This document shows, in pieces, positions 5,356-11,429 of a stretch of 64,000 nucleotides of DNA. The notes beneath the pieces were generated by a model. It did no database searches. It was not told where the DNA came from and saw only the letters and a list, made by a program, of their open reading frames with translations. Position 1 is the first letter of the stretch. Each line of letters begins with the position of its first letter. The stretch is taken from the NCBI RefSeq assembly GCF_002215035.1, contig NZ_NKFP01000004.1, positions 621,726-685,725 on the forward strand, written 5' to 3'. The translations under genes were made by a program, and so were the position numbers. Origin of the DNA: Leptolyngbya ohadii IS1 (GTDB lineage: Bacteria; Cyanobacteriota; Cyanobacteriia; Elainellales; Elainellaceae).

Positions 5356-6321
5356 TCAGTCATCTAGGGGGCTGCGAACTCCTCTTCCACCTCGATTGAG
5401 GACATGAGTATAGATCATCGTCGTCTTGACATCTTTATGTCCAAGCAGTTCTTGCACAGTGCGAATGTCGTAGCCCGCTTCAAGCAAATGCGTTGCAAAA
5501 CAATGCCGAAAGGTATGACATCCCACTCGCTTTGTAATCCCCGTCGATTGCACTGCTCGCTTCAATGCTTTTTGCACACCGCTTTCATGCAAATGATATC
5601 GCCGCGTCAGCCCACTTCGAGGGTCGCGCGTTAGCCCGATTGCAGGAAACACAAACTGCCAAATCCATTCCCGGTCTGCATTGGGATACTTTCGTTCAAG
5701 CGCAAATGGTAGATGCACTGCACCATACCCCCGATCCAGATCTTGCTGATGGGCATATCGTACTCGCGCCAAATGAACTTGCAGTGGCTCTATTAAACTC
5801 GTGGGCAGCATCGTTACCCGACTTTCATACCCTTTCGGGTTTCGCACAATAATTTGGTGCTGAGCAAAATCTAAATCTTTGACACGCAGGTTTAATCCTT
5901 CATTAAGCCGTACACCACTACCGTATAACACTTGAATGATCAGTTTGGGCACTCCAGTCATCTGTTGGATAATTGAATGCACTTCTGCTTTGGTCAGCAC
6001 TGTCGGTAGCTGTCGCGGTTGTCTGGCTCGAACTGCATCGATCGACTCGTCTAACTCCTGTCGCAACACCTCACGATACAAAAACAGCAAAGCACTAAAC
6101 GCTTGGTTCTGCGTAGAGGCTGCCACTCGTTCCTGAACAGCTAGATGGGTCAAGAACGCTTCAATTTCGGCAGTTCCCATCTCTTTAGGGTGACGTTTGC
6201 TATGAAATAGAATAAACCGACGAATCCATTGCACATAGGTTTCTTCAGTCCGGTACGAATAATGCTTTACCCGAATCGCATCACGCACCTGGTCCAAAAG
6301 CTTTTTGGGCGGCATTTCCAT
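5356..6321 (-). CDS. intI: Integron integrase IntI (tyrosine recombinase)
   Basis: A 321-residue tyrosine recombinase. The N-terminal SAM-like domain contains [20 protein letters not shown] (20-39). The catalytic set is complete: R138 (GVRLNE), K163, H269 and R272 ([11 protein letters not shown]), H295 (LLGHKDV) and Y304 (MIYTHVL). Two features mark it as IntI rather than Xer or phage integrase: the extra segment between the second and third catalytic boxes (about 206-238, with [13 protein letters not shown]) and the C-terminal signature [16 protein letters not shown]. IntI binds attI and folded single-stranded attC sites to insert or excise cassettes. It faces away from the attI-like repeats and cassettes, the standard integron layout. 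The ATG at 6321 gives the normal family length. Confidence 0.95.
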
Positions 6322-6322
6322 A

Positions 6323-6639
6323 GCCTAAATTCTCATCGGTCAGTCTAATTGAGCTAAACCGGATTTTAGGCAGAATCGTGCGGTGCATTAACTAGAAGAA
6401 ATACGGAAATTTTCTGCCTAATTGCCCAATCTAGGGGTAATATGCCGAATAACAGTCTATCTAATATCCATAATTCCAGGATTAGGCGGAAGGTGTCAGT
6501 CTAATTTCCCTAATAAGCACATTATGCCGACTCCGAGCAGCCTAACTCGCCTCAGTAGGATATTAGGCAGACAGAGTTCGGTCTAACACCCCAGTAAAGG
6601 AAATTAGGCGGAAGCAGTCAGTCTAAATAATAGTTAGCT
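6323..6639. other. attI-like region with phased inverted repeats
   Basis: Directly upstream of intI lies a set of degenerate inverted repeats. The left half is TTAGGC(A/G)GA and the right half is CAGTCTAA, about 23 bp end to end. Left halves start at 6366, about 6440, 6482, 6522, 6563 and 6604; right halves are at 6341, 6453, 6497, 6538, 6579 and 6619. The inner four to five units repeat every 40-42 bp, close to four helical turns. A reverse copy (TCTGCCTAA, 6413-6421) also occurs. Several halves match the integron core consensus RYYYAAC/GTTRRRY (GCCTAAC, GTCTAAC). The series ends at GTTAGCT (6633-6639), the best candidate crossover point. Position and core matches argue for attI; the multiplicity is unusual. 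Confidence 0.65.
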
Positions 6640-6804
6640 TGCGAAAAAAGCAGTGAGTAGACCTCCTAAAATTACTTGCTGGTGCTGCAAGCTCATCAAG
6701 ATGGCATACAAATTAAGCTTTGAAGATACATCATGCAGTTAGCCTTAAAGAATTAACCATGCGGCTCACCTAAGTAGCTATGCTGTTCCTACCTGGTGAA
6801 CTTC

Positions 6805-7032
6805 TCACTTGCTGTACTTAAAGGTGTACTCCACTGCTGCAACAAGTTCTTCAAGAGAGCATTGCAAAATTTTGCATAGAGCTAAAGTTTGCTTAGGCGT
6901 CAACTTTGGCTCACTTCGTCCAGTCTCCCAATTGCTAACCGTCTGGTCAGTTACACAGACACAATCTGCTACTTGTTTTTGAGTAAGATTTCGGCTCTTT
7001 CGTATCTGTACTAATAAATTGTCATCTAACAT
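6805..7032 (-). CDS. XRE-family helix-turn-helix regulator
   Basis: A 75-residue protein that is almost entirely one XRE/Cro helix-turn-helix domain: RKSRNLTQKQVADCVCVTDQ (about 11-30) followed by TVSNWETGRSEPKLTPKQTL. It is divergent from the methyltransferase gene across 222 bp. By analogy with controller (C) proteins of restriction-modification systems it may set the timing of nuclease and methylase expression; that role is inferred from location and size only. The ATG at 7032 is the sole reasonable start. Nearby AT content is high, as in the rest of the cassette. Confidence 0.8.
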   Translation of the reverse strand: MLDDNLLVQIRKSRNLTQKQVADCVCVTDQTVSNWETGRSEPKLTPKQTLALCKILQCSLEELVAAVEYTFKYSK

Positions 7033-7254
7033 AGTTAATTACAAAACAATTTATACAAATGGATTTGACAAGCCGCGCAGAATGAGTTATTGTCGTTACT
7101 ACGCTCGGTCAACGTATGCTAATTCTACTTAAGGAAGAAAGCTAGTCTAAAGTAGCAATGCTACTTGAAACAAGTGGTTTTAGATTAATGATTTTTGAAG
7201 AATGGATGTAATCTGTAAACTTTTCTTCTCAAAAATCGGTTATCTGACTGAGAA

Positions 7255-8490
7255 ATGAATGATTGTTTAAACATGGCTGGAAAACTTACACTATTTTCTT
7301 TTTTTTCAGGCTCCGGTTTCCTGGATTTAGGGTTTGAGACGAATGGTTTTGAAGTTGCATATGTTAATGAAATTCATCGTCCTTTTCAAGATGCATATAA
7401 ATACTCACGGAATTTGCTTAACTTACCCCATGCTAAGTACGGTTATTATTCTGATGATGTTGCAAAACTTACAGATGATAATGCATGTCATAAGCTAGCA
7501 GAGTTAATTGCAGATGCGCGACTCACTTCAAAAGTGATTGGATTTATTGGTGGTCCACCGTGTCCAGATTTTTCTATTGGAGGCAGGAATAGAGGTAGAG
7601 ATGGTGATAATGGTAAACTCTCTGGTTCTTATATAGAATTAGTATGCCGTCTACAACCAGACTTCTTTCTTTTTGAAAATGTAAAAGGTTTATGGAAAAC
7701 ACAAAAACATAGAAGTTTTTACGAAGAGCTAAAAAGGAAAGTTCAAGATGCTGGATATATTACTTCTGAAAAGCTAATAAACTCAATTGAATATTCAGTT
7801 CCTCAAGATAGAGACAGAATAATTCTATTAGGATTTAATCTTTCGCTTTTTGGGAAAGATTTATCCGGGGAAAGAAGTATTTCAGAATTTGTACTACCTT
7901 GGAATTCGTATAAAAGATATATAAAAAAATCAGTCCTAAATATCGCTTGGCCTAAGACAGAACCTTTTCAAATTGATTCAGAGAAAAGAAAGCCAGACGA
8001 AGTCATTGAGGAATTAACTGTAGAACATTGGTTTAGAAGAAATGATGTTTATAACCATCCAAATGCTCAACACTTTTTTAAGCCGAGGGCTGGCTTAAAG
8101 AGATTCAATTCTATTGATGAAGGTGATGATTCTAAAAAATCGTTTAAGAGATTACACAGATGGCGTTATTCACCTACAGCTTGTTATGGTAATAACGAAG
8201 TTCATTTACACCCTTATAAAGCCAGGAGAATATCAGTCTCTGAAGCTTTATCCATACAATCCTTACCTGCTCTATATTCTTTGCCTCCTTATATGTCATT
8301 AACGGATATGTTTAAGACCATCGGAAATGGAGTGCCTTATCTGGTAGCCGTGGCACTCTCAAATTTAATAGCTGAGATTTTTGATGACGAAAAAATGACT
8401 GATTTTTTAGACTGGACTAATGAACTTAAAGAAAGCCACTTTGAAGCTGTTTCAAATCAACCAATTCAGTTAGGATTGAAATTCAGTTAG
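7255..8490 (+). CDS. DNA (cytosine-5-)-methyltransferase of a type II restriction-modification system
   Basis: A 411-residue C5-cytosine methylase. Motif I (AdoMet) is FSFFSGSGFLDLGF (14-27). Motif IV is GGPPCPDFS with catalytic C103. Motif VI is ENVKG (141-145), motif VIII is QDRDRII (184-190) and motif X is KTIGNGVPY near the C-terminus. The target-recognition region lies between motifs VIII and IX, so the sequence methylated cannot be read directly; the partner nuclease suggests a CCGG-containing site. The first ATG (7255) has little ribosome binding site; a second ATG at 7273 is also possible. It converges with the endonuclease gene, and its codon use is strongly AT-biased, which suggests recent acquisition. 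Confidence 0.92.
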   Translation: MNDCLNMAGKLTLFSFFSGSGFLDLGFETNGFEVAYVNEIHRPFQDAYKYSRNLLNLPHAKYGYYSDDVAKLTDDNACHKLAELIADARLTSKVIGFIGGPPCPDFSIGGRNRGRDGDNGKLSGSYIELVCRLQPDFFLFENVKGLWKTQKHRSFYEELKRKVQDAGYITSEKLINSIEYSVPQDRDRIILLGFNLSLFGKDLSGERSISEFVLPWNSYKRYIKKSVLNIAWPKTEPFQIDSEKRKPDEVIEELTVEHWFRRNDVYNHPNAQHFFKPRAGLKRFNSIDEGDDSKKSFKRLHRWRYSPTACYGNNEVHLHPYKARRISVSEALSIQSLPALYSLPPYMSLTDMFKTIGNGVPYLVAVALSNLIAEIFDDEKMTDFLDWTNELKESHFEAVSNQPIQLGLKFS

Positions 8491-8646
8491 GATTGAAATG
8501 GTGAAGATCAACATAAAGAGGCAGGGAACTTTGAATAATTCAACTTTATTGAGATTGTTGAACAAGGTTTCAAGGGTTTCAGATATTGAGCTTTGAGAAT
8601 ATGTCAATTTTTCGAGGTGCTCTACAAACGTTGAGTGCCATTAAAG

Positions 8647-9456
8647 TCAAAATTGCTTCCAAAATGTTTCGAGATCATCAATGGTTATAATTTGAGAGTC
8701 AGAGTCAATGATAGGACCTTCAATATTTGGAAGAGATGCTAATAGAGGAGCACTAAACACTTCTGAATCACTATCATTACTAGTTCCAATTGCATGGAAT
8801 TGTAATGGTTGGGATTCACTATGAATGTATTTACTTGCAAGTTTTGTTATGTTTGCTTCATAAAGTATTTGATATCTTCTATCTGGTCTGTTGCTTGTTT
8901 TGACTGATATAAATGAAATTACGTCTTCAGGCTCGCATCTGTTTATTAGCTTTTTATAAAGGTTTTTAAGTTCGTCAAATAAATCTCTTCCAAAAAGCTC
9001 TTGAGAATAAGGTATTGAAGTGGAAATAATACTTCTTCGAACAAGTACAAAGTCAGGAGTTGAACACCTCACTACAAGATCTCTTTGCTTTAAATCCTCA
9101 AGAAAATCCATAAAGCGCCTTCTGGCATTAGGCTTGTAAAGTTGCCAAAACTTTATCGAGTTCTCATTTCCCATCTTAACAATATAAAGATCTTCCCTCT
9201 GATTCAGGATAGAACAGTGAGCACTATACAAATAGCTAAATTCATTCCATTGCCCTTTACAGTTGTTAAGAGAACCGCCACTCGGCACTTTATTGTAGAA
9301 GCTGAGAGCCTCCTGAATCACCATTTGTCTGATCACTTCAGAAATCTGATCTAATGGAGTGTCATGTGGAATTAACGGATATATTGACAAAAAAGCTTCA
9401 TAAGCTCTGACATATACTTCACCGTTTTCCACTCTTAAATAATTAGGCGTTTGCAT
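8647..9456 (-). CDS. Type II restriction endonuclease, Cfr10I/Bse634I/NgoMIV-like
   Basis: A 269-270-residue PD-(D/E)XK nuclease. In 270-residue numbering, the acidic P135-D136 is followed by S185-V-K187 and E201. The K-x13-E spacing and the adjoining KTSNRPDRRYQ are the hallmark of the Cfr10I, NgoMIV, SsoII and EcoRII superfamily, in which the R-x-D-R element contacts a CCGG or CCNGG core. I therefore infer cleavage of a CCGG-core site; the flanking specificity is unknown. It converges with the methyltransferase, as in many type II systems. The ATG at 9456 is preferred over a GTG one codon upstream. The gene is AT-rich like its partner. Confidence 0.75.
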   Translation of the reverse strand: MQTPNYLRVENGEVYVRAYEAFLSIYPLIPHDTPLDQISEVIRQMVIQEALSFYNKVPSGGSLNNCKGQWNEFSYLYSAHCSILNQREDLYIVKMGNENSIKFWQLYKPNARRRFMDFLEDLKQRDLVVRCSTPDFVLVRRSIISTSIPYSQELFGRDLFDELKNLYKKLINRCEPEDVISFISVKTSNRPDRRYQILYEANITKLASKYIHSESQPLQFHAIGTSNDSDSEVFSAPLLASLPNIEGPIIDSDSQIITIDDLETFWKQF

Positions 9457-9659
9457 CACAGCATTTCACGTTAATAGTTTTCCAAGCTGTTTATACTCTG
9501 CTTTACGAGTGATATTGGCAATATTAGCCATCATCATTGAAATTACCCATTTGCCCCTCATTTTGAATCTTTTCATGTGTAAACTTTTCCGGCTTTGCAA
9601 CAAAACTTAATAATGGGTGGATTTACAGACGTTAACAATTTGGTTGACCAAGTATTCTT

Positions 9660-9698
9660 CCATAAGGTGCCACCTTATGGGTACCTCGATTAATCGAG
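9660..9698. repeat. Two consecutive palindromes before attC1
   Basis: CCATAAGGTG/CACCTTATGG around one base (9660-9680) is followed four bases later by the perfect palindrome CTCGATTAATCGAG (9685-9698). They lie between the endonuclease promoter side and attC1. No T-run follows, so they are not a simple terminator. A regulator-binding role is possible but not shown. Confidence 0.6.
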
Positions 9699-9730
9699 AT
9701 TTCTCTGGGAGTTATGTCGCATTACTCACA

Positions 9731-9817
9731 AGCTAACAACCCGGCTGGAGCGGACTGACGAGAGATCTCGGTACTGTTGCAAATGTTGTTTGCAGCCGCT
9801 CAGCCGGAACGTTAGAT
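9731..9817 (+). other. attC: attC recombination site 1
   Basis: The outer boxes are AGCTAAC (9731-9737) and GTTAGAT (9811-9817). The inner arms CCGGCTGGAGCGGACTG and CAGCCGCTCAGCCGG pair over about 15 bp with two unpaired (extrahelical) bases, G and A, on one side, and a three-base unpaired spacer (AAC opposite GTT) next to the core. These are the structural marks IntI uses to choose the strand. The length is 87 bp with a variable central hairpin region. Confidence 0.92.
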
Positions 9818-9924
9818 GGCTCAAGTTCTTGGTGGTGGCGGTGCATCAGTGCTACTTGTCAGCAGTTGAGGTTGCGTGGTTGAAGTAGTCTTTTGAGGCA
9901 ATAGTTTAAACGTCGATGAATAAT

Positions 9925-10266
9925 TTAGGGAGCATTGCTAATTTCTACAATCATTGCCCCTTGTCGTAGCTGTTCTAGTGCATCAGGTAGAGTTGCACTT
10001 AACAAATTTCGCAAGTTGCGATTAGTAACGTTGCCACAAGTTAACCACAAAATCTGAGGGGGTGTTCCTAAGCGACAAACCAAATCAATGAAATCACTGT
10101 CTTTGGTCATGATTACAGCATTCTCGGCTCGTGCTGCTTCAAAAATTTCGATGTCTTGAGCATCTCGTAAAGACAAGTCTCGTAAGGCAACAGCCTCTAA
10201 TCCAAAAGTTGCTGATAGCCAACTAGCAAGTGTTGGAGGCAGTTGAGCATCAATCCAAATTTTCAT
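9925..10266 (-). CDS. DUF5615 PIN-like toxin
   Basis: A 113-residue protein with the compact PIN-like fold of DUF5615: N-terminal KIWIDAQLPPTLASWL with the first acidic residue, the central pair ALRDLSLRDAQD, and the strand VIMTKDSDFIDL carrying the conserved D-S-D. Members are predicted ribonuclease toxins. The ATG overlaps the stop of the preceding DUF433 gene by 4 bp (ATGA), the usual antitoxin-toxin coupling. The pair sits alone in integron cassette 2 and reads against the attC direction, so it must bring its own promoter. Toxicity is inferred from the family. Confidence 0.85.
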   Translation of the reverse strand: MKIWIDAQLPPTLASWLSATFGLEAVALRDLSLRDAQDIEIFEAARAENAVIMTKDSDFIDLVCRLGTPPQILWLTCGNVTNRNLRNLLSATLPDALEQLRQGAMIVEISNAP

Positions 10267-10496
10267 GCCGTTAATCTGGGGAAATCAGTACGGCGGGCTG
10301 CAAAGAGTAAACAAGCTTGAATGTCTGCTAGTTCAAGATCAGGAAAGTCTTCCAAGATTTCAGTGACGCTAACGTTCTCAGCTAACATCTCCAAGACATC
10401 GGTAACACGAATTCTCATCCCTCTAATACAAGGACGACCACCGCACTGACCTGGTGTTTGAGTGATGCGATTAAGCAAGCTAACTGTTGAGTTCAT
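10263..10496 (-). CDS. DUF433 antitoxin
   Basis: A 77-residue DUF433 protein. The signature is TPGQCGGRPCIRGMRIRVTD (14-33), followed by the helical segment VLEMLAENVSVTEILEDFPD and the C-terminal LADIQACLLFAARR. It has a winged-helix-like DNA-binding fold and is normally the antitoxin/repressor of an adjacent DUF5615 toxin. It is the first gene of the two-gene operon and overlaps the toxin by 4 bp. Its ATG (10496) lies only about 60 bp from attC2, so the promoter must lie between the start codon and attC2, or inside attC2. Confidence 0.88.
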   Translation of the reverse strand: MNSTVSLLNRITQTPGQCGGRPCIRGMRIRVTDVLEMLAENVSVTEILEDFPDLELADIQACLLFAARRTDFPRLTA

Positions 10497-10554
10497 GAGC
10501 TGTTAGTGTACTGCGTATGATTCTATCTTATCGAGTAATCATGCCAGAGTTGCT

Positions 10555-10641
10555 ACCTAACAATTCGGGTGCAGCGGATTGACCGAAGCCGCTTGGGTAA
10601 GATGCAAAGATCATGGCAACCGCTCAACTGGAACGTTAGCT
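10555..10641 (+). other. attC: attC recombination site 2
   Basis: The outer boxes are ACCTAAC (10555-10561, matching RYYYAAC) and GTTAGCT (10635-10641). The arms GGGTGCAGCGGATTG and CAACCGCTCAACTGG pair, with G:U pairs, leaving two extrahelical bases (C and A) at the same places as in attC1. The length is again 87 bp. Confidence 0.9.
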
Positions 10642-10711
10642 GGCTTCGTTTCTGGTCATCTGTATAGAACGGTTATCTGATTGAGCCGCCTGCGCTAGTT
10701 CTTGCAGTTTT

Positions 10712-10730
10712 GGTATAACCAAGGTATAAC
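10712..10730. promoter_or_regulatory. Probable operator of the RHH/MazF module
   Basis: Two direct copies of GGTATAAC (10712-10719 and 10723-10730) spaced 11 bp apart lie 30 bp before the antitoxin start. The first is part of the palindrome GGTATAACC. Ribbon-helix-helix antitoxins commonly bind such repeats to repress their own operon; binding here is inferred. Confidence 0.5.
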
Positions 10731-10760
10731 TAAAGAGTAGGAATTACAGTTAAGGTCACT

Positions 10761-10997
10761 ATGAAAACTGCAATTTCCCTTCCAGATTCAGTTTTTGATG
10801 AGGCGGAAGCATTAGCTCAACAGTTGGGCTTGTCACGCAGCGAACTGTACACAAAAGCGTTGCAAGCGTATTTGAAAAAGCATAATCGTAATCAAATCTT
10901 GCACAAGCTGAACCAAGTCTACTCACAAGAGTCTTCTGAACTAGATCCTATGATGGCAAAAATGCAATTTTTGTCTCTCCCTCGTGAGGATTGGTAA
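10761..10997 (+). CDS. Ribbon-helix-helix antitoxin (MazE/CopG-like)
   Basis: A 78-residue protein. Residues 1-42 form a ribbon-helix-helix: strand MKTAISLPDSVFDEAE, helix ALAQQLGLSRSELYTKALQA. The C-terminal tail is probably the disordered, toxin-binding part (LNQVYSQESSELDPMM). It is followed at once by a MazF-family toxin through a TAATG stop-start overlap. It is the third integron cassette, in the same direction as its attC, as is standard. Repeats just upstream look like its operator. Confidence 0.85.
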   Translation: MKTAISLPDSVFDEAEALAQQLGLSRSELYTKALQAYLKKHNRNQILHKLNQVYSQESSELDPMMAKMQFLSLPREDW

Positions 10998-11335
10998 TGT
11001 ATCGGGGAGAAATTTGGTGGGCGAATTTACCTGATCCAGTAGGTTCAGGGCCTGGATATCGTCGTCCCGTTTTAGTCGTTCAAGATGATACTTTTAATCA
11101 AAGCCGTATCAGTACAGTTATTGTTGTCATTATCACCTCAAATATTCAGTTGGCAGAAGCCCCAGGCAATGTACTGTTACCGAAAGGAGCAACAGGCTTG
11201 TCTAGGGATTCAGTCGCTAATGTATCTCAAATTCTCACAGTCGATAAAACGTTCCTGGTTGAGTGTATTGGTTCCCTACCAAACAACTTGCGGGAGGAGA
11301 TAGATGATGGACTACGAACAATCTTGTATCTGTAG
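10997..11335 (+). CDS. MazF/PemK-family endoribonuclease toxin
   Basis: A 112-residue MazF-fold toxin. The N-terminal YRGEIWWANLPDPVGSGPGY and RRPVLVVQDD are the conserved MazF/PemK first strands with the catalytic arginine. The threonine-containing VIVVIITSN strand and GLSRDSVANVSQI (second catalytic region) follow. It cleaves mRNA at short sequence motifs. I prefer the ATG at 10997, which shares one base with the antitoxin stop, over a TTG six bases earlier. It is the last gene before the decayed attC-like element. Confidence 0.9.
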   Translation: MYRGEIWWANLPDPVGSGPGYRRPVLVVQDDTFNQSRISTVIVVIITSNIQLAEAPGNVLLPKGATGLSRDSVANVSQILTVDKTFLVECIGSLPNNLREEIDDGLRTILYL

Positions 11336-11342
11336 CAATGCC

Positions 11343-11429
11343 AGCTAACAAGTTGCTGCACCAGAACACTGCAAGCTGACCGGTTGAGTGTTCAAAGCTA
11401 TTTGCGTCCGGTGAACTTGGTCGTTACTC
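11343..11429 (+). other. Decayed attC-like site 3 (end of cassette array)
   Basis: This element begins with AGCTAAC (11343-11349), the same outer box as attC1. It continues with GTTGCTGCACC, an arm typical of attC sites, and later shows CCGGTGAACTTGG and CGTTACTC. CAAGTT/AACTTG and CACC/GGTG can pair, and an inner hairpin GAACACT/AGTGTTC is perfect. The 3' box GTTACTC no longer fits GTTRRRY. From box to box it is again 87 bp. I read it as a degenerate attC closing the array. Confidence 0.55.

Follow-up and report, generated by a model that had tools for sequence, protein, structure and literature searches.

The attI site of an integron of Leptolyngbya ohadii IS1 consists of one recombination core preceded by an array of about seven units of L-box-like half-sites. 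This array likely loads integrase molecules for synapsis and for insertion at the terminal core, with a probable dampening effect on the integrase gene (intI). All positions refer to the window, which is the whole stretch of 64,000 nucleotides analysed.

The attI site and its cassettes

The interval beside intI is the attI of a genuine chromosomal integron, as a preliminary description of this DNA had claimed. This is based on an adjoining intI that exceeds the TIGR02249 cut-off, a core resembling that of attI1, and attC-bearing cassettes that follow the core on the same strand. The features are as follows:

5356-6321, minus strand: intI, integron integrase of 321 amino acids (TIGR02249, 462.8 bits; cut-off 265)
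6320-6464, plus strand: degenerate stretch of the array next to intI, some three to four units, with half-sites at 6320, 6340, 6366, 6413, 6440 and 6456 (half-site scan, unit HMM, direct repeats)
6482-6504, plus strand: unit dyad TTAGGCGGAAGGTGTCAGTCTAA (half-site scan, unit HMM, direct repeats)
6522-6545, plus strand: unit dyad TTATGCCGACTCCGAGCAGCCTAA (half-site scan, unit HMM, direct repeats)
6563-6586, plus strand: unit dyad TTAGGCAGACAGAGTTCGGTCTAA (half-site scan, unit HMM, direct repeats)
6604-6626, plus strand: terminal unit TTAGGCGGAAGCAGTCAGTCTAA, whose right half doubles as the core L box (half-site scan, unit HMM, direct repeats)
6621-6639, plus strand: attI core with L box GTCTAA, 6-bp spacer and R box GTTAGCT (conserved CTAA-N5..7-GTT ending the arrays)
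6634-9811, plus strand: cassette 1, bounded by the attI core and attC1
6805-7032, minus strand: XRE regulator of cassette 1 (Pfam/NCBIfam)
7255-8490, plus strand: m5C methyltransferase of cassette 1 (Pfam/NCBIfam)
8647-9459, minus strand: Cfr10I/Bse634I-type endonuclease of cassette 1 (Pfam/NCBIfam)
9731-9817, plus strand: attC1, R'' AGCTAAC and R' GTTAGAT (82.7 bits, training-set member)
9812-10635, plus strand: cassette 2, a toxin-antitoxin-like DUF433/DUF5615 pair
10555-10641, plus strand: attC2, R'' ACCTAAC and R' GTTAGCT (74.5 bits, training-set member)
10636-11423, plus strand: cassette 3, a small ORF and a PemK/MazF-like toxin, forming a toxin-antitoxin-like pair
11343-11429, plus strand: attC3, R'' AGCTAAC and a degenerate R' GTTACTC, where the cassette array ends (62.5 bits, training-set member)

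The core (GTCTAA-N6-GTTAGCT) joins a GTTRRRY R box to an inverted L box, which is the arrangement of the attI1 core. It is the single terminal core that ends the array, and the cassette junction lies at its G^TT (6633/6634). The attC sites were detected with a covariance model (R2) built from 16 sites, which replaced an unspecific simple scan. The R'' of attC1 is complementary to the core GTTAGCT, and the R'' of both attC1 and attC3 fit the GTTAGCT starts of their own cassettes, while that of attC2 has one mismatch. This is the pattern expected of captured cassettes. From the three conventional attC sites downstream it follows that one restriction-modification cassette and two toxin-antitoxin-like cassettes sit at the terminal core and nowhere else. 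Cassette 1 (3.2 kb) looks like a seemingly complete restriction-modification system held in one cassette; a cytosine methyltransferase gene likewise adjoins attI in a plasmid integron of Kovacikia (L179).

The window carries the sole full-length intI of the genome. A broken N-terminal intI fragment was also found on another contig (G000:C6:3427747-3427974). An attC match (3423966) lies about 3.7 kb from this fragment, which is probably what is left of a second integron that has decayed.

The repeat array and its conservation

Half-sites were sought with TTAGGCNGA in both orientations, a match requiring at least 6 of 8 positions, and the chance level was set by 2000 dinucleotide-preserving shuffles of window positions 6322-6642. 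The array was found to hold 15 half-sites (shuffles: mean 3.6, maximum 12), four half-site dyads of 23-24 bp (mean 0.025, maximum 2), and seven pairs of like half-sites at 40/41 bp (mean 0.04, maximum 2). The repeats reported earlier are thus real, all three counts lying above the maximum of the shuffles. Four dyads are clear and take the form TTAGGC...GYCTAA, with left-half starts 40, 41, and 41 bp apart. Nearer to intI are three to four degenerate copies (about 6320-6348, 6366-6391, 6401-6421, and 6440-6464). In total the array comprises about seven 40-41-bp units with some 15 half-sites over roughly 300 bp, and the intI start (6321) directly adjoins it. The core-like heptamers mentioned in the preliminary description were also located: two fit RYYYAAC (GCCTAAC, 6540-6546; GTCTAAC, 6581-6587) and one fits GTTRRRY (GTTAGCT, 6633-6639).

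An alignment with related cyanobacterial integrons had been suggested as a check, and the layout was found to recur there. The comparison set comprised 80 related intI loci and the window, giving 81 upstream regions, which were analyzed with an iteratively built unit HMM. This model found 189 units upstream of 65 of the 81 intI genes, and the same regions, when reversed, yielded none; the other 16 loci showed no unit under this model, and in some of them the contig ends nearby. A repeat-array attI is therefore common to many cyanobacterial integrons. The layout is also present on a Kovacikia minuta plasmid, and some records that carry the label Chloroflexi or Anaerolineae (L103, L111, and L112) likewise have units next to a related integrase. 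No units were found beside eight more distant integrases from viral contigs (37-59% identical). A class 1 plasmid picked as a control (L180) has a rearranged attI1 region.

The spacing of the units is constant. Gaps of 40 or 41 bp occur in 79 cases across the 81 loci, doubled values marking a missed unit, and the mean unit length is 40.34 bp (sd 0.82, n=153, intI-linked and solo arrays pooled). At 10.5 bp per turn this corresponds to 3.84 helical turns. Of the helical phasing proposed earlier, the regular spacing is upheld, but an arrangement strictly on one face of the DNA is not implied.

One group of integrons (L054, L055, L124, L128, and L179) has a conserved palindrome of the AAATGTAC-N13-GTACATTT type in the left flank of the array, on the side of intI, which is a possible intI operator.

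Arrays distant from an intact intI

Further arrays were found in the same genome on other contigs or far from intI. About a dozen array-like loci are present, and relatives contain up to tens per genome. Those of L. ohadii are:

C6:3071097-3071212, 3080870-3081024, 4001713-4001876 and 4042027-4042110: best solo arrays
1722836, 2105752, 4060906 and elsewhere: weaker solo arrays

The array model (R1) was trained on a set that includes some of these solo arrays; a model built without them recovers the same arrays. The attC model gave 14 matches in this genome (E up to 1), three of them in the window, and for most of the others an array is found on the same strand within a few kb upstream. Direction was then compared in ten relatives, with 58 core-including arrays set against the 150 best attC matches. 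At least 35 of the 58 arrays are followed within 8 kb by an attC on the same strand, where 0.7 would be expected from attC density. With the same 150 best matches, the control directions gave one array (downstream, opposite strand), four (upstream, same strand), and one (upstream, opposite strand). Arrays therefore mark clusters of captured genes even where no integrase adjoins them. In the preliminary description, copies away from intI genes were to count against an attI. Such copies do exist, but cassettes with attC sites follow them, and this speaks for an attI instead.

Several solo arrays abut intI fragments, covering codons 1-45 and 223-320 (G016, contig C85), 2-85 (G023, C75), and 116-236 (G001, C93), and further fragments abut arrays in G012, G053, and G057. 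Based on these remnants, some solo arrays are integrons with a decayed intI, as has been proposed for CALINs (PMC9024848). In L. ohadii, a tblastn search found no intI remnant alongside the solo arrays. Moreover, they were not seen to be decayed relative to the window array: a model trained solely on intI-linked arrays from other genomes gave them 53.0, 46.9, and 42.1 bits, compared with 50.4 bits for the window array. In G053, a single-contig genome without an intact intI, arrays score 61.9, 54.6, and 49.1 bits.

In genome G023, eight arrays were inspected closely and found to share a unit of about 720 bp, bounded on the left by a small ORF's stop codon and on the right by the attI core. The cassettes beyond the core differ among the eight copies. 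Since one copy retains 75 intI codons and the other seven retain none, an intI-less form of this platform appears to have multiplied within the genome. All 18 arrays listed for G023 belong to a dispersed platform with an ORF of 68 amino acids, which lies 340-680 bp to the left of each array. This ORF matches no family in Pfam or NCBIfam and is present in 21 of 98 genomes, with as many as 58 copies per genome. In other genomes it also occurs where no array was detected, and in G009 it adjoins an intact intI. Its loci include:

L221-L228: copies in genome G023
L119:8485-8703 and L028:2774-2977: further copies

A segment of about 300 bp is conserved between this ORF and the array (L221:4263-4560 and relatives, alignment A3). 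It has no Rfam match, and a branched fold with a terminal stem GCTTAAGGCG/CGCCTTAAGC is predicted for it; just 9 of the 64 pairs in this fold show double-sided changes in the alignment.

It is conceivable, if somewhat doubtful, that many integrase-less attI platforms have multiplied around cyanobacterial chromosomes and are served in trans by one or a few IntI proteins. The platform would here consist of array and core, and in some genomes of the dispersed unit with the 68-amino-acid ORF and the structured segment. If this were true, such platforms would make up a distributed integron instead of a single array.

Proposed function of the array

The half-sites have the look of protein sites on double-stranded DNA and are most easily explained as repeats of the integrase L box. 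The terminal half-site of the array is itself the core L box. No covariation between paired half-sites or spacer arms beyond that of random pairings was found, which favors double-stranded sites over hairpins. Half-site matching was 0.664 within a unit, 0.683 between adjacent units, and 0.660 for other combinations, and spacer arms matched at 0.608 compared with 0.605 for random pairings. We infer that IntI is the protein on these half-sites. It is the simplest candidate because they resemble the L box that IntI must bind, and because there is a precedent in IntI1. IntI1 binds four sites in attI1, including the direct repeats DR1 and DR2 ahead of the core, and all four are required for efficient attI x attC recombination (PMC3518468; PMC12901181; PMC8946536). 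The loading of several integrases, one of the roles raised in the preliminary description, thus most simply accounts for the match between the half-sites and the core L box.

On this basis, each 40-41-bp unit would offer two inverted L-box-like half-sites ahead of the single recombination core. Several integrase molecules loaded beside the core would raise the local integrase concentration, resembling the loading on DR1 and DR2 of attI1 but on a larger scale. The array-bound integrase may then aid synapsis with incoming folded attC sites and steer insertion to the terminal G^TT. It would probably also lower transcription of intI, since the array begins beside the intI start codon. The chief point against a role for IntI only is that arrays persist without an intact intI. 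Good arrays in such genomes are unexpected if IntI is the sole selective agent, unless the loss was recent.

This persistence ahead of cassette genes, together with the position of the array next to the intI start, would also suit a mainly operator function, in which another DNA-binding protein, or IntI purely as a repressor, occupies the array and the core recombines alone. Such a function is unlikely, as the core terminates the array and its L box is matched by the half-sites. Moreover, no enrichment of -35 boxes was seen at promoter distance from the leftmost unit (2.72 against 2.71 matches). A cassette promoter (Pc) in the leftmost unit, with TATACT as its -10 box, was considered and rejected: it is striking in L121, L153, and L219, but -35 matches overall stay at background.

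The geometry of the units bears on whether the inner ones serve as alternative entry points for cassettes, which had been another suggestion of the preliminary description. Between units, CTAA is followed by 17 bp (89 cases) or 18 bp (30 cases) and then TTAG, and this interval carries a conserved CCC...GGG. In the core, the distance from CTAA to TTAG is 6-7 bp, about one helical turn shorter. Some units elsewhere do carry GTTRRRY-like boxes, with a G before TT in about 35% of units, but at the loci examined cassettes occur only after the terminal core, the widest gap within an array is about 150 bp, and the four clear window units all lack a preceding G. Alternative entry is accordingly very improbable. 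An argument that inner units lack the crossover G was dropped, because it fits the clear window units but not the 35% of units in general.

Recognition of the array by structure, as DNA hairpins (attC-like) or as RNA (a riboswitch-like leader), is just as hard to credit. Imperfect dyads do occur within the units, and palindromic spacers are seen in a few cases (for example L056 and L078), but neither half-sites nor spacer arms covary as a fold would require, and the array has no Rfam match; the hairpin or RNA reading was rejected on these grounds. The units were also rejected as attC sites, as conventional attCs were found that are 87 bp long and different, and the units show no pair covariation. 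Least probable of all is a dispersed, selfish family of repeats with no part in integron function: the number of array-like loci would suit it, but placement is strict, beside intI or its remnants and with the core end towards cassettes that carry attC in matching orientation.

Comparison with known integron systems

Outside class 1 integrons, attI sites are described as poorly known, and IntegronFinder misses them (PMC9024848). In the open-access literature, to which the search was confined, neither an attI with a long tandem array nor a cyanobacterial attI was found described. A conserved and searchable attI signature makes the 5' end of integrase-less cassette clusters findable and helps to separate decayed integrons from other attC clusters. 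It also allows one to ask whether a single integrase serves several attI sites. Moreover, an attI with an array, if bound by integrase as proposed, offers a natural case for the number of integrase-bound sites that an attI needs.

The closest described site is attI1 of class 1 integrons with its DR1 and DR2. Both share a single L/R core containing GTTRRRY, with comparable spacing of CTAA..GTT, and both have additional sites upstream of the core, which are bound by integrase in attI1 and are L-box-like, putative integrase sites here. However, attI1 carries its two direct repeats in some 65 bp, a layout that the window array does not show; it has about seven 40-41-bp units, each an inverted pair of half-sites. 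The attIA of Vibrio cholerae is likewise chromosomal with a single insertion point but, unlike the window attI, has no repeated additional sites (PMC8946536). Sequences of attI away from their own intI are also known from Delta-attI-type cassettes of class 1 and 2 integrons. There a fragment of attI takes the place of attC at the 3' end of the cassette (PMC12901181), whereas here a full array lies 5' of the cassettes. Finally, CALINs likewise hold attC-bearing cassettes without an intact integrase, as found behind the solo arrays. They are defined by attC alone, whereas in the clusters described here a recognizable attI array persists at the 5' end.
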